Shown: one piece after another, positions 53,272 through 63,755 of the stretch
How the letters are laid out: each line of letters starts with the position of its first letter
Numbering within the stretch: the first letter of the stretch is position 1
NCBI GenBank assembly: GCA_021848545.1
Contig: JAJZUL010000001.1
Span: 62,001-126,000, forward strand
Reading direction: 5' to 3'
Length of the DNA: 64,000 nucleotides
Source of the DNA: Pseudomonadota bacterium
Lineage (GTDB): Bacteria; Pseudomonadota; Alphaproteobacteria; Rhodospirillales; Magnetospirillaceae
Translations under genes and position numbers: made by a program
Notes under the pieces: generated by a model
Seen by the model: only the letters and a program-made list of their open reading frames with translations
The model's database searches: none
What the model was told of the DNA's origin: nothing

Positions 53272-53664
53272 TCAGGCCGACGCCGGCGCCGTCAAAGCGG
53301 GACCGGACGGCGGCCGCCCCGCACGATAGGTGAGCATGCCCCGAATGACACGGTAGGCATACCACACCCAGGCCGGGACAAAAACCAGCCAACCAAGGAG
53401 GCCAAACGGAAAAAGAAGAAAAGCGAAGGCGCTCCAGAGCAGGAATACCAGGGACGAGCGTAGCCGCCAATGGCGATGACGCTCGCTGAAAGCGTCGATG
53501 CTCACGATCCGCGAGTGGCGGGTGTCGATGAACACCTGAAGCCAGATCGTCACGATATAGAAAACAAGACCCGTCGCCATCGCCACATAGGCAATGCGAG
53601 CGCGCTTTTCAGCGCGCTCGCGTTCCTGCGGGACCGAAGACGTTGGGGACGTATTCGACTCCAT
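53272..53664 (-). CDS. Small membrane protein downstream of petC
   Basis: A 130-residue protein with a charged N-terminus and three likely transmembrane helices (about residues 24-46, 70-87 and 89-108), ending in an Ala/Pro-rich tail. I do not recognise the family. It begins 11 bp after the petC stop on the same strand, so it belongs to the pet transcript and could be an accessory or assembly subunit of this bc1 complex, or simply a hitchhiker. Confidence 0.6.
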   Translation of the reverse strand: MESNTSPTSSVPQERERAEKRARIAYVAMATGLVFYIVTIWLQVFIDTRHSRIVSIDAFSERHRHWRLRSSLVFLLWSAFAFLLFPFGLLGWLVFVPAWVWYAYRVIRGMLTYRAGRPPSGPALTAPASA

Positions 53665-53675
53665 TATTTACCCTT

Positions 53676-54482
53676 TTACCGGTGATTCCACCACCGCTCG
53701 TGGGACGTATCCACGCGGCGCCAGTACACCTTATACAGCAAGAAGCTGAAGATCGTCAGCAGACCGAACAGCCCCATGATCCACGGCCCGAGCGCCGCAC
53801 GCTCCTTGGCATGGGGATGGGCGACCACATACAGGAAATCGACGATATCCTGGGCGGTCTGATCGAACTGAGCCGGGGTCATGGTGCCCTTCGTCAGCTG
53901 CTTCACCCCCATCGCCACCTTGGCCGGCTGGCCGTAAAGCCACCCTTCCTTAATCACCGGCGACTGCAAGCCTTGCAGATTGGCCAGCACGTCCGGCATC
54001 GCCACATTGTGGAACAGGACGTTGTTGACGCCGGTCGGACGGGTCGGATCGAGATAGAACGACTTGAGGTAGGTGTAGAGCCAATCCGGGCTTTGGGCTT
54101 CGGCCATCACCGTCAGATCCGGCGGCGTGATCGAAACGAACTGTTTCATGATGCCTTTCGGCATCGCCGTGACCACCGTGTCGTGAACGAGGCGACCGCT
54201 CTCGTTCAGATATTTCTGCATCTCGGAATTGGTGATCCCGAGTTGCTTGGCGATGGAGGAGAAACGAGTCCCCTGAATGCTGTGACACGCCGCGCAACGA
54301 TGCAACACATACAGCGCGCCGGTACGCAGATTGGCGAGATTGGAAGTATCCACCTTCATGTGCATCAACGGCGGGACCGAAGTCTTCGTTGAGGCACGGG
54401 CCGCGGGGCCGGAGAACGCAACCGCGAGCGCCAGTGGCAGCGCGGCAGCGGTGAGGCGGACGGTGCTAAAAGAGCGACGCAT
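53676..54482 (-). CDS. petC: Cytochrome c1 of an atypical bc1 complex
   Basis: A 268-residue membrane-anchored cytochrome. After a signal peptide the heme motif CAACH appears near residue 68, the axial Met lies in NVAMPDVLANLQG, and a single C-terminal helix (LGPWIMGLFGLLTIFSFLLYKVYW) anchors it. It carries electrons from the Rieske protein to a soluble or c4-type cytochrome. The segment SPDWLYTYLKSFY and the short length recall beta/gammaproteobacterial c1 rather than the usual alphaproteobacterial form. ATG at 54482 gives the better ribosome-binding spacing; 54488 is possible. Confidence 0.93.
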   Translation of the reverse strand: MRRSFSTVRLTAAALPLALAVAFSGPAARASTKTSVPPLMHMKVDTSNLANLRTGALYVLHRCAACHSIQGTRFSSIAKQLGITNSEMQKYLNESGRLVHDTVVTAMPKGIMKQFVSITPPDLTVMAEAQSPDWLYTYLKSFYLDPTRPTGVNNVLFHNVAMPDVLANLQGLQSPVIKEGWLYGQPAKVAMGVKQLTKGTMTPAQFDQTAQDIVDFLYVVAHPHAKERAALGPWIMGLFGLLTIFSFLLYKVYWRRVDTSHERWWNHR

Positions 54483-54523
54483 GATCATTAGTCCTCGATA
54501 AGCGGGCGACGATGGTACGCCAG

Positions 54524-55954
54524 TCAGTGTGTCAGACCACCTTGGGTGAGACGCTCGGGCACCTTGCCATCCTGGGTAAGCTTGGGGCTCACCAAAGCAA
54601 GGAGCAGGATGAAGGCGATATACAGCGTCGGGATCCAGTTGGTCTGCAGCATCAGCCCCCAGCTATGGGCATCGATGGCGTACATCCAGAAATCCACGCC
54701 CCAGACCAGAGCCTCCAGCACCACGAGCCAGACGATCGTCGTCATAGCGGAACGCTGGCGATTGAAGTAGGGCAGCAGGAAGAAGGTCGTGTAGTACAGC
54801 AGGGTGGCGTGCATACCGATGACCATATTGTGCTCGGTCGCCTGGCCATTGGCGATGACGCCCAGCCAGATGAACACCACCGGCATCGCCAGAAGGTTGA
54901 CCTTGTAGAGGAACGAGCGGTAGCGGATCGAACGGATCGGGTTGCGGTCGAGCAGCGGCATTGCGGCCAGCATCACGAACGCGGCGGCGAAGGTCATAAC
55001 ACCGTAGAGCTTATCCGGAACCCCGCGCAGCATCGCGTAGAAGGGCAGGAAGAACCAGAGCGGATGAATGTCCGAGGGCGTCTTGATGCCATTGGCCGGC
55101 GCGAAGTTCAGCTTGTCGACCAGATAGCCCCAACCCGACGGATTGTAGAAGACGAACCAGAAGAAGACGAGCATGAAGACGCTGACGCCGAAGATGTCCT
55201 TCACCGAATAGTACGGATGGAAGGGAATGCCGTCCTTGGGCCAGCCGTCCTTGTTCAGGTTCTCGCGGATATTGACGCCGTCGGGATTGTTCGAGCCGAC
55301 CTGATGGAGCGCGATGATATGCACCAGCACCAGCGCCATCAGCGCGAAGGGCATCAGGAAGACGTGGAACACGAAGAAACGGTTCAGGGTCGGCTGGCCG
55401 ACGATGAAGGAACCGCGCAACCATTCGGCGATCCCGTTGCCGATCACCGGAATGGCGGTCACGAAATTCACCACCACCATGGAGCCCCAGAAGGACATCT
55501 GGCCCCAGGGCAGCAGATAGCCGAGGAAGGCTTCGCCGGCGAGCACCAGATAGATGGCGATGCCGATCAGCCACAGCAATTCGCGCGGCTTCTTGTACGA
55601 ACCGTACATGATGCCGCGATACATATGCAGATAGACCAGCACGAAGAAGAGCGAGGCGCCGGTAACGTGCATGTACCGGATCAGCCAGCCCCAGTGCGAA
55701 TCCCGCATGATGCCCCGCAGAACCGACCAGAAGGCCAGATGCGTATTGGGCTGATAATGGATGGCGAGAAACAGGCCGGTCGCAAGCTGCAGGACCAGCA
55801 CCAGCATCGAAAGCGAGCCGAAGAAGTACCAGAAGTTAAAATTCTTCGGGGCGGCATAGCCGGTCAAATGCTCACGCCACATGTCAACCACCGGAATCCG
55901 GTGATTGATCCACCCCATCAGCCCACGCTGTTCACTCGTTGTCCCAGTCGTCAT
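54524..55954 (-). CDS. petB: Cytochrome b of an atypical bc1 complex (PLWF Qo motif)
   Basis: A 476-residue cytochrome b. The four heme histidines are H96, H110, H197 and H212. The second pair is separated by 14 residues, and the loop HQVGSNNPDG follows, features I associate with beta/gamma-type cytochrome b. The Qo-site motif, normally PEWY, reads PLWF (298-301, HPLWFFLPFYA). The Glu that accepts a quinol proton is therefore missing. The C-terminus is long, with extra hydrophobic helices. AGGTGA lies six bases before the ATG. Confidence 0.94.
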   Translation of the reverse strand: MTTGTTSEQRGLMGWINHRIPVVDMWREHLTGYAAPKNFNFWYFFGSLSMLVLVLQLATGLFLAIHYQPNTHLAFWSVLRGIMRDSHWGWLIRYMHVTGASLFFVLVYLHMYRGIMYGSYKKPRELLWLIGIAIYLVLAGEAFLGYLLPWGQMSFWGSMVVVNFVTAIPVIGNGIAEWLRGSFIVGQPTLNRFFVFHVFLMPFALMALVLVHIIALHQVGSNNPDGVNIRENLNKDGWPKDGIPFHPYYSVKDIFGVSVFMLVFFWFVFYNPSGWGYLVDKLNFAPANGIKTPSDIHPLWFFLPFYAMLRGVPDKLYGVMTFAAAFVMLAAMPLLDRNPIRSIRYRSFLYKVNLLAMPVVFIWLGVIANGQATEHNMVIGMHATLLYYTTFFLLPYFNRQRSAMTTIVWLVVLEALVWGVDFWMYAIDAHSWGLMLQTNWIPTLYIAFILLLALVSPKLTQDGKVPERLTQGGLTH

Positions 55955-56017
55955 GCTACGTCACCTGTTTTGCGAATGGACTGGATCGTCCCGTTTGCGG
56001 GACGCATCCCCACCACC

Positions 56018-56878
56018 CTACTTGTTTCCAGCCTTCTTGTTGCCAGCCGCCTTGTTTTCGACCTTCTTGCTCACCGCCTTGACGGGCATGGCGAGCGCCG
56101 AAGCGAGAACGCCAGGAAGCGGCTGCGAAGCCCGATCCTTGACGTAGGTGGCGTAATCAAGCGGCCCGATCCCCTCGATCAGCTTCGGATCCAGCACCTC
56201 GGCATAGGCTGCCACCGCCTTGCGCTGCTCCGGGCGCAAACGCCGGGCGATCACTTCCATCACATGTCCGGCGCTGTTGTGGCGCTGTCCCGTGGCGAAA
56301 AGATTGAGTTCGTTTTCGACATAAGTCGCGTGCTGACCCGCCAGAGTCGGAATCGCCATCGGCGCATTGCCCAGACCGCTCGGCATATGGCAGGCGGCGC
56401 AGGCCGGCACCTTATGCGAAGGCACGCCACCCTGGTAGATGAGGTAGCCCTCTTTGGCGAGGTCAAAAGGAACCTTCGGCGTCGCCGCGTTGGCGTTGGC
56501 CTTGAGGTTCAGCGTCTGCGACGAGAAGTAGCGGGCGATATTCTGCAGATTGGCGTCGCCGGGTGCCGGCGGCACGGTCTGGATCATCGCCGACATGGTG
56601 GCGTTCTGACGCGCACCGCTGCGGAAATCCTCGAGCTGCTTGAGCAGATAATTATAGTTCTGCCCAGCCAGATTCGGGAAATTGGGGGCCATGCTGTTGC
56701 CGTGCTGGCCATGGCACGAAGCGCAGACCGCGACGTCGCCCGCCCCCTGAGCGGCATTGCCCTGAGGGGCAACGCCAAGATATGGCGCCGTTGCCGCGGC
56801 GTGCGCGAATGGCGCGCCGAGAACCAGCAAGGAGCCGAAAACGGCTGCCGGAAGCAGCCGAGATGAAACCTGATGCAT
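56018..56878 (-). CDS. Diheme cytochrome c4-like protein
   Basis: A 286-residue periplasmic protein. A signal peptide (VFGSLLVLGAPFAHA) precedes two cytochrome c domains with CASCH (about residue 52) and CAACH (about 163) and axial-Met segments. The tail is rich in Lys and Asn (KKVENKAAGNKKAGNK). Cytochrome c4 shuttles electrons between the bc1 complex and terminal oxidases. Its place between petA and petB is unusual and indicates that it is the dedicated partner. ATG at 56878 or GTG at 56896 (overlapping the petA stop) may be the start. Confidence 0.9.
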   Translation of the reverse strand: MHQVSSRLLPAAVFGSLLVLGAPFAHAAATAPYLGVAPQGNAAQGAGDVAVCASCHGQHGNSMAPNFPNLAGQNYNYLLKQLEDFRSGARQNATMSAMIQTVPPAPGDANLQNIARYFSSQTLNLKANANAATPKVPFDLAKEGYLIYQGGVPSHKVPACAACHMPSGLGNAPMAIPTLAGQHATYVENELNLFATGQRHNSAGHVMEVIARRLRPEQRKAVAAYAEVLDPKLIEGIGPLDYATYVKDRASQPLPGVLASALAMPVKAVSKKVENKAAGNKKAGNK

Positions 56879-56892
56879 TCCTCTGCCCCTCT

Positions 56893-57564
56893 TCACCAGA
56901 TGCTCGGCGTCCAGGATTTATCGGCACCGCTTGGCGAACCCTCACCGACCCGCACCACGGTATCGCTGACCCAATAATAGGGGGGAACGGGCATGTTGAG
57001 CGGAGCCGGCGAACCTTCGATGACCCGGGCCGAAAAATCGTACATGGACCCATGACAGGGGCAGTGGAAACCGCCGTACCACCACTGGGTCACGGTATGA
57101 GGCGCGGGACGATAGTCCGGAATGCACTGCGCATGGGTGCACAGAGCCACCGCGATGAACATGTGCGGCTTCAACGCGCGGTAATTGCCGTTGACGTAGG
57201 CCGGAGCCGGCTGCTGATTGGCCTGACTCGCGGCGTCCTTCAACCGCTTCAGAAGACCGGGCTCGGACAGCGTCTTCAGCATCCAGTCCTTACGATGCAG
57301 AATCCACACCGGCTTCTTTTTCCACTCGGCAAGGAGCAACTGCCCCGGCTCAACTTTGCTGACATCGATATCAACGGGAGCCCCGAGCGCGGCGATCGCC
57401 TTACCCGGATTCATGGTTTGAATCAGTATGTCGGCAAAAAGTCCAACTGCTCCGGCCCCAAGCACACCTACGGCACCGATAAGAAACCGGCGCCTTCCTA
57501 CAGAATGCTCGTCTTCCGGAAGCAAGGAATCCATATGTGGTACAGACATCGCTTCTCGACTCAT
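56893..57564 (-). CDS. petA: Rieske [2Fe-2S] protein of an atypical bc1 complex
   Basis: A 223-residue Rieske protein. A twin-arginine signal anchor (VGRRRFLIGAVGVLG) is followed by the cluster-binding motifs CTHAQC (142-147) and CPCHGS (168-173), with Tyr two residues after the second. The usual first motif is CTHLGC; the Leu that shields the cluster is Ala here and the next Gly is Gln. It takes electrons from quinol at the Qo site. The ATG at 57564 has AGGGG seven bases upstream. It is the first gene of petA-c4-petB-petC. Confidence 0.92.
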   Translation of the reverse strand: MSREAMSVPHMDSLLPEDEHSVGRRRFLIGAVGVLGAGAVGLFADILIQTMNPGKAIAALGAPVDIDVSKVEPGQLLLAEWKKKPVWILHRKDWMLKTLSEPGLLKRLKDAASQANQQPAPAYVNGNYRALKPHMFIAVALCTHAQCIPDYRPAPHTVTQWWYGGFHCPCHGSMYDFSARVIEGSPAPLNMPVPPYYWVSDTVVRVGEGSPSGADKSWTPSIW

Positions 57565-57882
57565 AGAGTTGCCCCTGCAAGGGCCTCCGCTTGACATTCG
57601 TCAAACACCCCTGCGACGAATGCTTTTGTTAATGGAGGCGGGAGCCCGATTGATGGGCGGAGCTTATACCCCACCATTGCAGAGGGCTAGTAATACTACA
57701 TTACAAATCGTTAATGTTTCAATCTTGGAATGCTAACAAACAAAGTTTTAAAGGTGAGTTGTTGGGGTTTTAGGAGGCCGGCCGCACAACCACCGGAACG
57801 ATACAGCCCCATTTGACATCGGCGCCCCCCCTCCTTAATAAGTGCCTGCAATGGCGACGAGCCGCATATCGTGGTGGATTTC
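57565..57882. promoter_or_regulatory. Divergent AT-rich control region between petA and the SDR gene
   Basis: This 318-bp gap is AT-rich near 57690-57760, unlike the surrounding high-GC DNA. On the minus strand TTGAAA, an 18-base gap and TAGTAT could be the petA promoter. A short inverted repeat GTAAT..ATTAC (57690-57704) overlaps it. No coding sequence is convincing here. Confidence 0.4.
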
Positions 57883-58656
57883 ATGACCGAAGACTTCGAA
57901 ACGCTGCGTGGGTACGAACCGGAACAGGGGGCGTTGGACGGCCGGGTGATCTTGATTACCGGCGCGGCCGGCGGCATTGGCCGGGCGGTTGCCCGCGGCT
58001 GCGGGCGTCACGGGGCGCAATTGCTGCTGCTCGATCACGATGAACGCGGACTCAATAGTCTATATGACGAATTCATTGCCGAACGGTGGCCGGAGCCGGT
58101 CCTGTGCCCGGTGGATCTGGGCGGTGTCGGCATCGAAAACCTGCGTCAGGTCGCCGATGCCGTCGGCGCCCAGTTCGGCCGGCTCGACGGATTGCTCAAC
58201 AATGCCGTCTGGATGGGGCCGTTCACGCCTTTCGAACATTACGTGCCCCAGACGTGGGGGCATGTCATGAACGTCAATCTGGCGGCGCCCTTCTTCCTGA
58301 CCCAATGGTGCATGCCGCTTCTGCACAAGGCGCCCGACCCGGTTCTGCTGTTTTCGCTGCAGGACGCCAGCCGCGCCTATCACGGCGCCTTCGCCCTGGC
58401 CAAGGCCGGACAGCGGGCGATGGTCGACATGCTCGCCGCCGAGTACGGTCCCGAAAGCATCCGCCCGGTGCGGGTGATGGGCATCGACACCGGGCCGGTC
58501 GAAACCCATGGCCGACGCCAGAATTATCCGGGTGAGGATCCGAACCTGCACCCGGCGCCGGAAACGGTGGTGGGTCCCTATCTTTGGGCGCTGGGTCCGA
58601 ATTCGGCGGGCCATACCGGCCTGGTCCTCGCCCGCAAGACGGGGAACGCCGGATAA
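57883..58656 (+). CDS. SDR-family protein lacking the catalytic Tyr (YciK-like)
   Basis: A 257-residue Rossmann protein of the YciK-like SDR group. The cofactor motif TGAAGGIG (27-34) and the NNA segment (106-108) are present. The catalytic YxxxK reads FALAK: Phe170 replaces the Tyr while Lys174 stays. A normal dehydrogenase reaction is therefore unlikely, and a structural or redox-sensing role is possible. It is divergent from petA. In Acidithiobacillus an SDR gene accompanies the pet operons, so the link is probably functional. ATG 57883 or GTG 57871/57874 may be the start. Confidence 0.88.
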   Translation: MTEDFETLRGYEPEQGALDGRVILITGAAGGIGRAVARGCGRHGAQLLLLDHDERGLNSLYDEFIAERWPEPVLCPVDLGGVGIENLRQVADAVGAQFGRLDGLLNNAVWMGPFTPFEHYVPQTWGHVMNVNLAAPFFLTQWCMPLLHKAPDPVLLFSLQDASRAYHGAFALAKAGQRAMVDMLAAEYGPESIRPVRVMGIDTGPVETHGRRQNYPGEDPNLHPAPETVVGPYLWALGPNSAGHTGLVLARKTGNAG

Positions 58657-58686
58657 GAACTCTGTATTTTCTGTGAAGCGAACACG

Positions 58687-58720
58687 AACACCGCCTTCAT
58701 TGTGAAGGCGGTGTTTTGTT
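58687..58720 (+). terminator. Rho-independent terminator after the SDR gene
   Basis: ACACCGCCTTCA and TGAAGGCGGTGT form a 12-bp perfect stem with a TTG loop, followed by TTTGTTTTAT. It ends the SDR transcript about 30 bp after the stop codon. Confidence 0.9.
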
Positions 58721-59004: not shown

Positions 59005-60723
59005 TCAGCTGACCTTGATCCGCAGGGTCTCCCGCCCGTCCTCGCCCACCATATGCACCGCGCAGGCGATGCAGGGATCGAAGCTGTGGAGGGTCCGGAG
59101 GATTTCCAGGGGCTGGTCGGGAACGGCAAGCGTCTGTCCCTTCAGCGCCGCCTCATACGGCCCCGGCTGACCTTGGGCGTCACGCGGCCCCGCGTTCCAG
59201 GTGGTGGGCACCACCGCCTGATAATTGGCGATCCTGCCGTCTTCGATGGTCAACCAATGCCCCAGCGCGCCGCGCGGCGCTTCCATGAAGCCGACGCCGC
59301 GCGTGCGCGCCGGCCAGGTCTCGGGCTCCCATTTCGCTTCGTTGTGGGTGGCAAGGTCGCCCGCCTTGATGTTGGCGACCAATTGACGGAACCAGCCGCG
59401 CATGAAATCCAGATAGATCTTGGTTTCCAGCGTCCGGGCCGCCGTCCGCCCCAGGGTCGAGAACAAAGCCGTCGGCGGCAGATCCAACGTCTTGAGGGTC
59501 ATGCCGACCAGTTCCCTGGCCTGGGCGTTGCCGGTGGCGTACAGCATCAGGACGCGGGCGAGCGGCCCCACCTCCATGGGCCTGCCCCGCCAGCGCGGCG
59601 ATTTCAGCCAGGAATATTCCGCACCGACGTTCAACTGCTCATAGGGCGGATTGGGGCCGGTGTAATGCAGCTCGGTCTCGCCCTTGAAGGGATGCAGACC
59701 GATTTTCTTGCCGCCGCCGTAGCGATACCAGGAATGATCCACGAATTCCTGAATCTGGTCGTCGGCGTCCAGGTCCAGCGGATGGATTTTTGTGAGATCG
59801 CGATCCAGGATCACGCCGCGCGGCACCAGAAAGCTGGCGACATCGTCGGTATCGCCGGTGGGATAATCGCCGCAGGTGAGGAAATTGCCGGTTCCCTCGC
59901 CGACCGTGGCCCAATCCTTGTAGAACCCGGCGATGGCCAGGGTGTCGGGAAGATAGGCTTGGTTGACGAAATCCTCCATGCGGGTGATGACGTCGGAAAC
60001 CCGCGCCAACTGCTCCATATTGATGGCGGAGTCGGAATTGGGATCGATGGGACAGGGCACCCCGCCGACGACGAAATTGGGATGCGGATTCTTGCCGCCG
60101 AAGATGGTGTGGATCTGGACGACGTCACGCTGCCATTCCAGAGCGTCCAGGTAATGCGCCACCGCCAGCAGGTTGGCCTCGGGCGGGAGCTTGTAGCCGG
60201 GATGGCCCCAATAACCGTTGGCGAAGATGCCGAGCTGGCCCTCATCGACGAAGGTCTTCAGCTTCTTCGCCACGTCGGCGAAATAGCCGGGTGAGGAGCG
60301 CGGATAGGTGCTGATGGAAGCGGCCAGCGCCGCCGTGGCCTTGGGATCGGCCTTCAGCGCCGATATGACATCGACCCAATCCAGGGCATGCAGGTGGTAG
60401 AAATGCATGACATGGTCGTGGACGTACTGGGCCGCGATCATCAGGTTGCGGATCAGTTGCGCATTGGGTGGAATCTTGTAGCCCAGCGCGTTTTCCACCG
60501 CCCGCACCGACGCGATGCCGTGCACCAGGGTGCAAACGCCGCAGATGCGCTGGGCGAACGCCCAGGCGTCGCGCGGGTCGCGCCCGCGCAGGATGATTTC
60601 GATGCCGCGCACCATGGTGCCCGACGAATAGGCCTGGGCGATGGCGTTGCCCTGCATCTGCGCCTCGATGCGCAGATGTCCCTCGATGCGTGTCACCGGA
60701 TCGACAACCAGCCGTGTGCTCAT
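59005..60723 (-). CDS. hynL: [NiFe]-hydrogenase large subunit (Isp-type, group 1)
   Basis: A 572-residue catalytic subunit. The nickel ligands are in RICGVC (C61, C64) and DPCIACAVH (C551, C554). After His557 there is a 15-residue tail that a maturation endopeptidase would remove. The rest follows group 1 uptake hydrogenases (RIEGHLRIE, HDHVMHFYHLHALDW). It is last in hynS-isp1-isp2-hynL, 16 bp after isp2. The order with two genes between the subunits is that of Thiocapsa Hyn and Aquifex-type enzymes. Confidence 0.96.
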   Translation of the reverse strand: MSTRLVVDPVTRIEGHLRIEAQMQGNAIAQAYSSGTMVRGIEIILRGRDPRDAWAFAQRICGVCTLVHGIASVRAVENALGYKIPPNAQLIRNLMIAAQYVHDHVMHFYHLHALDWVDVISALKADPKATAALAASISTYPRSSPGYFADVAKKLKTFVDEGQLGIFANGYWGHPGYKLPPEANLLAVAHYLDALEWQRDVVQIHTIFGGKNPHPNFVVGGVPCPIDPNSDSAINMEQLARVSDVITRMEDFVNQAYLPDTLAIAGFYKDWATVGEGTGNFLTCGDYPTGDTDDVASFLVPRGVILDRDLTKIHPLDLDADDQIQEFVDHSWYRYGGGKKIGLHPFKGETELHYTGPNPPYEQLNVGAEYSWLKSPRWRGRPMEVGPLARVLMLYATGNAQARELVGMTLKTLDLPPTALFSTLGRTAARTLETKIYLDFMRGWFRQLVANIKAGDLATHNEAKWEPETWPARTRGVGFMEAPRGALGHWLTIEDGRIANYQAVVPTTWNAGPRDAQGQPGPYEAALKGQTLAVPDQPLEILRTLHSFDPCIACAVHMVGEDGRETLRIKVS

Positions 60724-60739
60724 GGCTCCGTTCCCCCTC

Positions 60740-62011
60740 TCAAGCGCCGGCCGGTTCGTCGTCCAGATAGGTGGCGACGAAATCGGTCAAACCCTGAACC
60801 TCGATCTCCATGTGATATTCCTCCATCGCCTCTTCGATGGTGTGATGGCAGTAGGCGCACATGGTGATCAGCTTGTCGGGGTTCACCTTTTCCAGTTGGG
60901 CCTTCTTGCGCTTGAACGCCGTCAGTCTCAGCTTGGTCGCCCGCTCGTTGGCGCCGACGCCGCCGCCGCCGCCGCAACACCAGTTCATCGCGCCCGCATC
61001 GTCGGTCTCGACGAAGTCCGAGGCCACCAGCGCCATCAGACGGCGCGGCTCCCGATCGATTCCGCCACGGCGATTGATCTGACAGGGATCGTGAAAGGTC
61101 ACCCGCCGCGACTCCATCCCCTTGGTCGGCAGTTTGCCTTCGGCCCGCAGCCGATCGAGCAGTTCGACGATATGCACGACCTCGAAATTAAAGGCGCGGC
61201 CCATGAGGTTGGGGCCTTCCCACCGCAGCGCCTGATAGGCATGCCCGCATTCCGGACTGACGACGCCCTTGACCCCCAACCGTTCGGCCGCCTCGACCAC
61301 CCGCGCCACCAGAATGCGGGCGATGTCGCGGCTGCCGATTTGAACACCGACATTGGTCGCCTCGAAACCGTCGCTGGCGATGGTCCAACTGATGCCCGCC
61401 TTTTTGAAGATGCGCGCCATGGAAGACAGGATTTCCGGGTAATCCATGGTTTCCTGGGCCGACAGGATGACCATGTAATCGACGCCGGGCTGGTCGAAAC
61501 CGATGTCGATCCCGGTTTCGGCGACGGAGCGCTTGACCTGGGCGCGCAGCGCCGGCGCCAGATTGCCCATAAGACTGTTGGTTTCGACATGACGCACGGC
61601 GGCGCCGATCAGTTCCTTGGGCGTATGGCCGGCGGCGCTCATGCCCTCGCGCATCTTGCGGATCATCAGGGTGATGTCGTTGCCGACCGGACAGACCAGG
61701 GTGCAGCGGCCGCACAAGGTGCAACTGTCGTAAACCAGGGTTTCCCATTCCCCGAGATCGGCGTCGGTGACCGGCCGGACCAAACCCAGCATGGCGCCGA
61801 TGCGCCCGAACAGGGTGAATTCGCGCCGCCACAGACGCCGCATCGGGTCAAGCTTGCGGATGGGGATATAACGGGGGTCCTCGGTCTCCCGGTAGAACAC
61901 GCATGCCTCGGCGCACAGGCCGCAATGGACGCAAGAGGTGAAGAAACTGGCGACCGGCGCGTCGATTTGTTCGCGCAGCGCGTTCAGGCCCCGCTCCAAG
62001 GACGCCGTCAT
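60740..62011 (-). CDS. isp2: Isp2: HdrD-like Fe-S oxidoreductase of the hydrogenase operon
   Basis: A 423-residue soluble protein. Two [4Fe-4S] motifs (CVHCGLCAEAC and CTLCGRCTLVCPVG) are followed by two CCG-type domains, the first reduced to SPECGHAY with HDPC, the second with NWCCGGGGG and MCAYCHH. This is the HdrD/DsrK pattern. With Isp1 it should connect the hydrogenase to the quinone pool or to thiol/sulfur redox chemistry at the membrane. Its start overlaps the isp1 stop in ATGA. Confidence 0.93.
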   Translation of the reverse strand: MTASLERGLNALREQIDAPVASFFTSCVHCGLCAEACVFYRETEDPRYIPIRKLDPMRRLWRREFTLFGRIGAMLGLVRPVTDADLGEWETLVYDSCTLCGRCTLVCPVGNDITLMIRKMREGMSAAGHTPKELIGAAVRHVETNSLMGNLAPALRAQVKRSVAETGIDIGFDQPGVDYMVILSAQETMDYPEILSSMARIFKKAGISWTIASDGFEATNVGVQIGSRDIARILVARVVEAAERLGVKGVVSPECGHAYQALRWEGPNLMGRAFNFEVVHIVELLDRLRAEGKLPTKGMESRRVTFHDPCQINRRGGIDREPRRLMALVASDFVETDDAGAMNWCCGGGGGVGANERATKLRLTAFKRKKAQLEKVNPDKLITMCAYCHHTIEEAMEEYHMEIEVQGLTDFVATYLDDEPAGA

Positions 62012-62670
62012 GATTCCGCTCCTTTCCGGCCCTGGATGGCGCCGTTGTAATAGCGCGAGAAGACGAAACTCACCGAATGCATCAGCTTGGTGAAGGGAAA
62101 CACGATCAGCAGCGCGTCCACGCTCAGCACATGCACGGCCAGCATCATTTCAGGATTGCCGAACAGCTTGTTGGCGGCGACATAGCCGGTCACCAGGGGC
62201 AGCACGCTCAGCAGCAGCACCAGATAATCCTCGAAGCCGGTCAGCGCCCGGCGCACCGGGTCCATCACCCGCGAGAAGAACAGGATGATCGCCGCCACCA
62301 CCGCCAGCGCCGTCGCGCTTTCGACGATGGCGCGGTTGGCGGCCGGCCAGGACAGACCCAACGCGTCCCGGATCAGGGCGATGTGAGGCGCGAACAGAAG
62401 GAAGGCGGCGAAAAAGCCGAGATGAAACACATATCCGCCGAGATAGGTGCCCGGCGCGAAACGAACCAATCCCGGCCGAGGGATGGAACGTGTGAAAATC
62501 GTGGCCAGACCCTGCCGGATGGGATGGCCCTTGGCCGGCGCCAGGTCGGTCTTGCGCCCCAGCACCACCATTTCCACCAGCCGAAGCGTGATCCCGGCGG
62601 CGAATATGGCGAGCGCGACGTCGAAAGCGGGTCCGCGCGCCCACATGAAGAGCGTGAAGGCCGGATTCAT
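62008..62670 (-). CDS. isp1: Isp1: NarI/DsrM-like cytochrome b subunit
   Basis: A 220-residue membrane protein with five likely helices and several His in membrane positions (for example FHLGFF, AVHVLSVDA and KLMHSVSF) able to bind b hemes, as in NarI and DsrM. It would exchange electrons with quinone. The ATG at 62670 overlaps the hynS stop (ATGA), and its own stop overlaps the isp2 start in the same way, so the genes are tightly coupled. Confidence 0.92.
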   Translation of the reverse strand: MNPAFTLFMWARGPAFDVALAIFAAGITLRLVEMVVLGRKTDLAPAKGHPIRQGLATIFTRSIPRPGLVRFAPGTYLGGYVFHLGFFAAFLLFAPHIALIRDALGLSWPAANRAIVESATALAVVAAIILFFSRVMDPVRRALTGFEDYLVLLLSVLPLVTGYVAANKLFGNPEMMLAVHVLSVDALLIVFPFTKLMHSVSFVFSRYYNGAIQGRKGAES

Positions 62671-63755
62671 GACGGCTTCTCCAGATCGTGGGCATCGACG
62701 GTTTCGTGTTTCCTGGCGGCCTCGGCTTTCACGCCGCGCCCGACCAGGGCGCCGGCCGCGCCGACGACCGCCCCGACACCGACACCTCCGGCCGCCAGCG
62801 CCCGGTAATCGCCGGTGGGCACCGACAGCGGCTTGTAGAACCCGCCGCCATCCCAGAAATCGGGCTGGGTGCACCCCAGGCAGGGATGCCCGGACTGGAT
62901 GGGAAAACTGACCCCGCCATTCCATTTGACGGTCGCGCACACGCTGTGGGTGGTCGGCCCCTTGCAGCCCAGCTTGTACAGGCACCAGCCGGCCCGCGCG
63001 CCCTCGTCGTCGAAGGTTTCCGCGAACAATCCCTTGTCGTAGAACGGGCGGCGATAGCAGCGGTCATGGATGACGTCGCCATAGAACGCTTTCGGCCGCC
63101 CCAGATCATCCAGCTCCGGCACGCCGAAAGTCAGGAAATGCGCGAGCACGCCGGTCATGACCACGGGAATCGGCGGGCATCCCGGCACGTTGATGATCGG
63201 CTTGTCGGTGATGATGTCCGACACGGCGCGCGCGCCGGTGGGATTGGGCATGGCGTGGGGAATGCCGCCATAGGCGGCGCAGGTCCCTACCGTGACGATG
63301 GCGGCGGCGCCGGCCGCCGTCTCTTTCAAAACGTCCAGATTGGACCGGCCGGCGAAGCAGGAATAGGCCGGGTTCGCCACCGGTATCGACCCCTCCACCA
63401 CCACCAGATACTTGCCGTAATTCTCCTTCATCGCCTGATGGCGCGCCGCCTCCGCCTGGTGGCCCGCCGCCGCCTGCAGGGTGTCCTGGTAATCGAGGGA
63501 GATCGTGTTGAAGATCATCTCCTCGATGGTCGGCGCGTGCGAGCGCGTGATCGATTCGGTGCAGCCGGTGCATTCCTGGAACGACAGCCAGATCACCGAC
63601 GGCCGGCGCGCCCGCTCCAAAGCCTGGGCGATGCGGGGCGCCAATGCCGGCGGCAACGCCATCACCGAGGCCAAGGTCGCGCAATATTTCATGAAGGTGC
63701 GCCGGCTGACGCCATGCGCGGCCATGGTCTCCGACAATAAGGGTCTGGTCTTCAT
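62667..63755 (-). CDS. hynS: [NiFe]-hydrogenase small subunit
   Basis: A 362-residue subunit. A twin-arginine signal (VSRRTFMKYCATLASVMAL) exports it with the large subunit. The proximal-cluster motif is the standard CTGC (C62, C65), not the extended-Cys form of oxygen-tolerant enzymes, so oxygen sensitivity is likely. Further Cys and His ligands for medial and distal clusters follow. The C-terminus has a hydrophobic Gly/Ala-rich segment that may anchor to the membrane. AAGGGG precedes the ATG. It is first of hynS-isp1-isp2-hynL. Confidence 0.95.
   Translation of the reverse strand: MKTRPLLSETMAAHGVSRRTFMKYCATLASVMALPPALAPRIAQALERARRPSVIWLSFQECTGCTESITRSHAPTIEEMIFNTISLDYQDTLQAAAGHQAEAARHQAMKENYGKYLVVVEGSIPVANPAYSCFAGRSNLDVLKETAAGAAAIVTVGTCAAYGGIPHAMPNPTGARAVSDIITDKPIINVPGCPPIPVVMTGVLAHFLTFGVPELDDLGRPKAFYGDVIHDRCYRRPFYDKGLFAETFDDEGARAGWCLYKLGCKGPTTHSVCATVKWNGGVSFPIQSGHPCLGCTQPDFWDGGGFYKPLSVPTGDYRALAAGGVGVGAVVGAAGALVGRGVKAEAARKHETVDAHDLEKPS

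Follow-up and report, generated by a model that had tools for sequence, protein, structure and literature searches.

Within a 64,000-nucleotide stretch of an alphaproteobacterial draft genome from the Magnetospirillaceae (contig JAJZUL010000001.1 of assembly GCA_021848545.1; hereafter the window), the locus at 53272–58656 encodes a complete cytochrome bc1 complex, consisting of cytochrome b, a Rieske iron-sulfur protein and cytochrome c1, together with a diheme cytochrome c4. The reading that we favour, with moderate confidence, is that this module is an imported second bc1 with a dedicated c4, that it has been kept beside the native bc1, which it probably replaces, and that its electron flow is most likely reversed, at least in part. 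The genome also holds an inherited, alpha-type bc1 that is split and carries a stop codon, and no cytochrome c oxidase was seen in it; both features had escaped the sequence-only reading, an earlier interpretation of this DNA made from its letters.

Gene content and motifs of the module

On the minus strand, from 57597 down to 53272, petA is followed by the c4 gene, petB, petC and the gene for a 130-residue membrane protein, and a short-chain dehydrogenase/reductase (SDR) gene diverges from them at 57871 (Table 1). The arrangement is the one first proposed from the sequence: all six open reading frames (ORFs) are open at 53272–58656, and five of the six were identified through profile or structure-database matches (Pfam, NCBIfam, PDB sequence matching). 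Searches of Pfam, NCBIfam and PDB gave no match for the membrane protein. Its homologues lie directly after petC in three other genomes, at 57% identity in the alphaproteobacterial genome G390, 44% in a Rhodanobacter metagenome-assembled genome (MAG) and 46% in G962.

Heme and cluster motifs are in place throughout. All four heme histidines of cytochrome b are present, both Rieske boxes are intact, and so are the CxxCH motifs of cytochrome c1 and c4. The c4 gene product, with two CxxCH motifs, matches solved cytochrome c4 (6q2u/8smr, E 6e-36, and also 1etp); its C-terminal tail is missing from the c4-like protein encoded on contig C21 of the same genome.

Cytochrome b sequences were compared in an alignment of 171 rows, in which four genes are counted twice via overlapping loci. 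The step between the helix-D histidines is 14 in all 32 rows that carry the Qo motif PEWY and 15 in 138 of the 139 others. The window protein has a step of 15, lacks PEWY and contains the loop HQVGSNNPDG; by these characters and by its tree position the complex is typed as a beta/gamma bc1, in agreement with the sequence-only reading. PLWF, which stands in place of PEWY, is found in eight of the 171 rows, namely the window protein and seven others, four of which are module members. The Rieske cluster box is altered as well: CTHxQC occurs in all five module rows of an 81-row set and in none of the remaining 76, where the box reads CTHLGC (75 rows) or CTHFGC (one row). The tip of the Rieske protein docks at the quinol oxidation site of bc1, and it is at this site that the Rieske-box and Qo-motif changes would meet. 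As a pair they offer concrete residues for testing.

The SDR is nearest to YciK structures in a PDB sequence search. Each of the three module SDRs has Phe in place of the catalytic Tyr of YxxxK, the region reading GAFALAK or GGFAMAK, and its catalytic Ser is shifted or lost; the nucleotide-binding TGAxxGIG and NNA motifs are kept. The protein thus lacks the classical catalytic signature (Ser with YxxxK) and retains TGxxxGIG with NNA. Its role may be structural, nucleotide-sensing rather than catalytic.

Origin and distribution

In a joined PetABC tree of 81 rows (quick search; supports from the Shimodaira–Hasegawa-like approximate likelihood ratio test), the window groups with G390 (support 99), then with the Rhodanobacter MAG (98), G962 (100) and G983 (100). 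This module clade lies inside a gammaproteobacterial group, labelled via named tree neighbours, to which the other bc1 of G962 and that of G983 belong as well; 16 alphaproteobacterial rows, drawn from the family and order of the host, stand apart with support 100. PetA alone and PetC alone have the same nearest rows as the joined tree (FastTree). Forcing the window together with 10 alphaproteobacterial relatives costs 115 log units (approximately unbiased test, p-AU 0.000155), and forcing the window and G390 together with the alphaproteobacterial relatives costs 113 log units (p-AU 0.000239). An alphaproteobacterial origin is therefore rejected by the joined data, PetB alone being borderline. 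These trees bear out the proposal, made from the sequence, that a whole module was transferred horizontally; alphaproteobacterial descent, named beforehand as the outcome that would speak against transfer, is opposed by the joined PetABC (0.055 with PetB alone). Uptake of the module as a whole block from gammaproteobacteria is well supported by the tree evidence, and the module looks like a gammaproteobacterial duplicate that has moved between classes.

Besides the host, four genomes carry the module: G390, which belongs to another alphaproteobacterial family, G962, G983 and the Rhodanobacter MAG (G1083). The six-gene block is present in identical arrangement in G390 and in the Rhodanobacter MAG; G962 has the block without the SDR, and G983 has petA-c4-petB-petC only. 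The window petA product is 77% identical to that of G390, 72% to that of the Rhodanobacter MAG, 70% to that of G962 and 56% to that of G983. Each of the four genomes also carries another cytochrome b. On the contig that holds its canonical bc1, G983 has a further split cytochrome b-like pair (G983:C3:229419-231999).

Sharing of the locus by close relatives, which had been held out as a sign of vertical inheritance, was not observed: among 60 genomes of the host's family or order no close PetB was found (best full-length match 50%, highest, partial match 55%), PetB being the only protein searched. In 398 genomes sampled across the phylum only G390 has a close PetB (76%); the next by score is at 55%, and partial alignments reach at most 59%. 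Among 295 genomes of G390's family only G390 passes a PetB threshold of E 1e-150. In the class of genome G361, taken as gammaproteobacteria from its tree neighbours, 22 of 369 genomes pass E 1e-148, with G962 (73%) and G983 (56%, nearly full length) standing out; three more genomes of this class also reach 56%, over about 390 residues. The Rhodanobacter PetB is 71% identical (one further genome among the best 80 matches listed). Carriage on plasmids was considered and rejected, as a tblastn search of PetB against plasmids returned 101 records, none of which reached 60% identity or 80% coverage. Complete with an electron carrier of its own, a complex III appears to have crossed proteobacterial classes; it is found in two alphaproteobacterial families.

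Codon usage had been put forward as a further check on transfer, and it turned out to be only weakly atypical. Compared with 37 other window genes, called by a crude codon model seeded with some of the pet genes and subject to high scores by noise in short genes, petB and the SDR gene are ordinary, petC and c4 lie towards the edge, and petA and the short membrane gene lie beyond all 37. As compositional proof of a recent transfer this is weak and was set aside; since codon usage is partly host-like, the transfer was probably not very recent, or the donor was of similar composition. The host-like usage of petB and the SDR gene could also be explained if the module had arisen by an old duplication within alphaproteobacteria, been passed down vertically and been lost in other lineages, and PetB alone does not quite reject an alphaproteobacterial placement (56 log units, p-AU 0.055, 26 alphaproteobacterial rows). 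We find such a duplicate scarcely credible: the joined PetABC rejects it in both forms (p 0.00016 and 0.00024), the window cytochrome b has a step of 15 and no PEWY, and no close PetB was found in the 60 relatives, nor in the 295 family genomes at E 1e-150 apart from G390. A mix-up of contigs or contamination with gammaproteobacterial DNA is conceivable in a draft assembly, and is most improbable here, as the block lies inside a 166.7-kb contig (C7, of which the window is part) among genes that read, by eye from their translations, as ordinary chromosomal ones. The contamination score is also low (0.23%), the closest relative sits in another genome of the same class, and part of the block is close to its neighbours in codon usage.

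The inherited bc1 of the host

The host draft genome (G000; 3.17 Mb in 85 contigs, with scores of 99.75% for completeness and 0.23% for contamination) holds a second, alpha-type cytochrome b on contig C31, with a cytochrome c1-like gene directly after it. In this native cytochrome b the Qo motif is PEWY and the His step 14; the protein falls among those of the host's relatives, and its nearest plasmid records, from Tistrella and Azospirillum, are at 63–67%. These characters mark the host as an alphaproteobacterium. The native petA stands apart from petBC on contig C52 (G000:C52:84786-85268; L064:1447-2037), where its neighbours were read from their translations as iron-sulfur assembly, nifV- and cysE-like genes, and it is the only other TIGR01416 match in the host genome. 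The sequence-only reading had taken a simple petABC to be the alphaproteobacterial rule, and petA does lie directly before petB on the same strand in all 28 related loci that hold both, in a listing read by eye. A strict gap rule gives only 19 of 28, because nine petB ORFs are over-extended at the start; a 29th locus (L015), cut by a contig end, stands outside this count.

The native petA is interrupted by an in-frame TAG between CTHLGC and CPCHGS, with the frame open on both sides. Of 28 rows from relatives, 23 have Phe, Tyr or Trp at this position, and the other five did not match the pattern. The end branches of the native copies in FastTree trees are long: 0.557 against a median of 0.199 for petA (second of 29), 0.281 against 0.118 for petB (fourth of 30) and 0.511 against 0.175 for petC (fourth of 26). 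Such branches fit relaxed constraint, without proving it. At near-invariant columns, those with at most one deviant row, the native copy departs at 1 of 165 in petB, 4 of 60 in petC and 4 of 71 in petA. This splitting, and the stop codon in a key gene, suggest that work once done by the inherited copy has passed to the borrowed complex.

Electron-transfer genes of the host

A search of the host with the COX1-family profile PF00115 found only CyoB, a subunit of a bo3 quinol oxidase, and a NorB-type protein (G000:C51 and C74; L186, L187). CyoB scores over the cut-off of TIGR02843, CyoA and CyoC also score over theirs, and subunit II lacks the CxxxC copper motif. The NorB-type protein matches PF22085, has a fused cytochrome c-like domain without CxxCH, and was read as a probable quinol-type nitric oxide reductase (qNOR). 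SoxX, SoxA, SoxY and SoxB were found over cut-off and SoxZ was not identified; the Sox locus (G000:C6; L227:5551-11572) holds SoxX, SoxA, a three-heme cytochrome c, SoxY and SoxB. Three RuBisCO large chains and one weak relative are also present.

NiFe hydrogenase genes at 59005–63755 of the window converge on the SDR gene, in the order small chain, a gap at the place of isp1, an Isp2-like gene and large chain. The order, as far as read, matches hynS-isp1-isp2-hynL of Acidithiobacillus ferrooxidans; the group 1e label rests on gene content, the Isp1 gene not having been identified. The hydrogenase was considered as part of the mobile block and rejected, as it does not lie beside the module in the stretches from the Rhodanobacter MAG, G962 and G983. 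The G390 contig extends only 411 bases past the SDR gene and is uninformative on this neighbour.

A gene for a Cyc2-like porin-cytochrome, followed by one for a diheme c4-like protein, lies on contig C21 (L226:7969-9994), and the pair recurs in seven of eight family loci (L233–L237, L239 and L243; not L246). The AXPXFAR N-terminal motif is a published criterion for Cyc2 (PMC8406198; this and the other PMC publications are cited from excerpts). The host protein has the motif AXPXFAR[Q/K][T/Y], one CXXCH, PXL and a length of at least 365 residues, and has no Pfam or NCBIfam match. A Cyc2-like gene occurs in all five module genomes (the query itself came from one) versus 13 of the 35 others searched, which were not a random draw and were compared with relatedness ignored. 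G424, a congener of G390, has neither the module nor a Cyc2-like gene.

Direction of electron flow

A bc1–c4 complex would link the quinone pool to periplasmic c-type carriers. As no cytochrome c oxidase was seen in the assembly, electrons arriving at the c level, from Sox and perhaps from Cyc2, could not go straight to O2 by that route. In reverse flow, c4 would donate electrons to cytochrome c1, and the Rieske protein and cytochrome b would reduce quinone, driven by the proton-motive force; the quinol would then supply NADH formation for CO2 fixation as well as the bo3 oxidase. For an autotroph with Sox we consider this uphill reading the most likely one and favour it over forward flow to Fe(III), although the sequence does not decide between them. 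In a more specific and tentative version, the imported bc1–c4 would be the sole working complex III of a cell without cytochrome c oxidase, a dedicated uphill pump with a retuned Qo site (PLWF with CTHxQC) and a non-catalytic, nucleotide-binding SDR as partner. If true, this bc1 would be a naturally occurring example of specialisation for reverse flow, and one able to move between classes; if the lack of the oxidase is true, the organism offers a direct test of the proposal that some bc1 complexes exist to push electrons uphill.

In addition to the PetB result given above, several points weigh against an imported complex that has replaced the native one and runs in reverse. The direction of flow is not readable from sequence. 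The native petB and petC are open, and the nonsense codon in petA might reflect an error of sequencing or a variant within the population. No cytochrome c oxidase was seen in the host assembly in the PF00115 search, which left nitrite reductase, peroxidase, Nap and bd oxidase unsearched, and with 85 contigs (completeness 99.75%) an oxidase may be missing from the assembly. Elsewhere PF00115 has three matches in G390, six in G962 (one below cut-off), four in G983 and five in the Rhodanobacter genome; with three to six matches in each of these genomes, the module does not go hand in hand with a missing oxidase. A Cyc2-like gene occurs in 11 of 30 relatives from the host's family, and being so common there it is not part of the transferred block. 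Its strict motif is found in the host and G390 and is altered in G962 and G983 (FARQL) and in G1083 (YARQM).

Some of these points fit an ordinary forward bc1, a spare complex III that feeds a cytochrome c oxidase or another c-level acceptor missed so far. The assembly is in 85 contigs, acceptors such as nitrite reductase and peroxidase lay outside the search, and several COX1-family genes are present in the other module genomes; moreover, the solved entries 8smr/8snh combine cytochrome b, Rieske protein and c4. That PF00115 finds only CyoB and the NorB-type protein in a genome scored 99.75% complete argues the other way, and we take the spare complex as a serious possibility rather than the expected one. 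Forward flow might also end outside the cell, with electrons passing from hydrogenase, sulfur enzymes or NADH through quinone and bc1 to c4, the other c4-like protein and the Cyc2-like protein, and from there to extracellular ferric iron. The adjoining hydrogenase genes of Isp-like content (59005–63755) and the succession of a Cyc2-like and a c4-like gene in the host favour this route, which has been proposed, with bc1 complexes and CycA, for At. ferrooxidans on H2 and ferric iron (PMC7735108). We judge it unlikely, as Cyc2 is presented mainly as an iron oxidase in the excerpts of PMC8406198 and, in the stretches from the Rhodanobacter MAG, G962 and G983, no hydrogenase was seen next to the module. 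It is very unlikely that the complex is a degraded structural relic. Relics of this kind, the deranged bc1 complexes of acidophilic Acetobacteraceae, have been described (PMC10715153), but here no damage is seen in the cytochrome b heme histidines, in either Rieske box or in the CxxCH motifs of c1 and c4, and the block is retained in other genomes.

Layout of the locus and control region

Comparison with G390 places the probable starts of petA and of the SDR gene slightly inside their ORFs, near 57549 and at 57883, respectively. The control region between them had been described as AT-rich. It does have 50% G+C, compared with 64% for the window, and contains a stretch of 38%, but its composition is not unusual within the window, since two other 200-base steps have a lower value and a third matches it. 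One sigma70-like match lies in it (57722–57693, minus strand), with no excess over shuffles. Four terminator-like sites were found in the region versus 5.2 expected in shuffles. A 784-codon open frame on the plus strand (54512–56866), antisense to petB and c4, is probably a by-product of high G+C.

Table 1. Features of the bc1–c4 locus (window coordinates)
Feature	Position	Strand	Basis
petA, Rieske iron-sulfur protein, gamma-type	56893..57597	-	TIGR01416 above cut-off
CTHAQC cluster box of the Rieske protein (ordinary ones: CTHLGC)	57124..57141	-	81-row comparison
Diheme cytochrome c4 with C-terminal extension, Lys-rich here	56018..56896	-	Two CxxCH, PDB c4 matches
petB, cytochrome b, 476 residues with C-terminal extension	54524..55954	-	PF00033, PF00032
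Qo motif PLWF replacing PEWY	55052..55063	-	Cytochrome b alignment
petC, cytochrome c1	53676..54488	-	PF02167, CxxCH
Small membrane protein, 130 residues	53272..53664	-	'Membrane' read from sequence
Divergent SDR, YciK group	57871..58656	+	YciK structures are best matches
Divergent control region, 50% G+C	57598..57870		Composition
Terminator-like hairpin 3' of the SDR gene	58686..58716	+	14-pair stem, then T-rich tail

Comparison with known systems

Acidithiobacillus and Acidiferrobacter are known to have a bc1 accompanied by c4 and an SDR (PMC10654088), and for the petI bc1 of At. ferrooxidans, with its c4, uphill flow has been proposed (PMC2754497). As in the petI and petII loci of that organism, bc1, diheme c4 and SDR genes stand in one locus here and the genome has two bc1 complexes (PMC2754497, PMC7735108); At. 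ferrooxidans also has a group 1e hydrogenase and Cyc2 (PMC2754497, PMC7735108). The combination of bc1, c4 and SDR genes that the sequence-only reading likened to the Acidithiobacillus pet operons is present; gene order and the SDR itself differ. Here the order is petA-c4-petB-petC-membrane gene with the SDR gene divergent, whereas the order published for Acidithiobacillus is cycA-sdrA-petA-petB-petC, in one direction (PMC2754497, PMC10654088). For SdrA of At. ferrooxidans, N, S, Y and K are described as retained, and a resemblance to a complex I subunit is noted (PMC2754497); the module SDR is without the catalytic Tyr and Ser. The Acidithiobacillus link is therefore one of resemblance, by gene set and published descriptions, and is unproven beyond that.

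A further comparable system is the operon of G983 (L175), with the same four-gene order, PLWF and CTHLQC, identities of 56, 49, 56 and 47%, and a second bc1 in the genome; unlike in the module here, no SDR gene and no small membrane gene were found at that locus. Among solved structures, the best PDB matches of the window cytochrome b and Rieske protein are chains of 8smr, and the best c4-match sequence is also present there. The cytochrome b of 8smr/8snh has 403 residues and PVWY, whereas the window protein, with PLWF, exceeds it by about 70 residues.

Damaged, split bc1 genes together with a bo3 oxidase have been reported in Acetobacteraceae, for which transfer of a gamma-type Rieske gene was also proposed (PMC10715153). 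The host shares with them a petA apart from petBC, a damaged Rieske gene, a bo3 quinol oxidase and Cyc2 homologues. The differences lie in the His ligands of cytochrome b, which are intact here, in the kind of damage, a stop codon, and in the presence of a complete imported bc1. In the open-licence literature, covered by titles and the starts of abstracts, no account of a petA-c4-petB-petC arrangement in these hosts was found. To the sequence-only reading the analysis adds a second copy, a broken native Rieske gene, a genome where no c oxidase was seen, and the joint occurrence of CTHxQC with PLWF.

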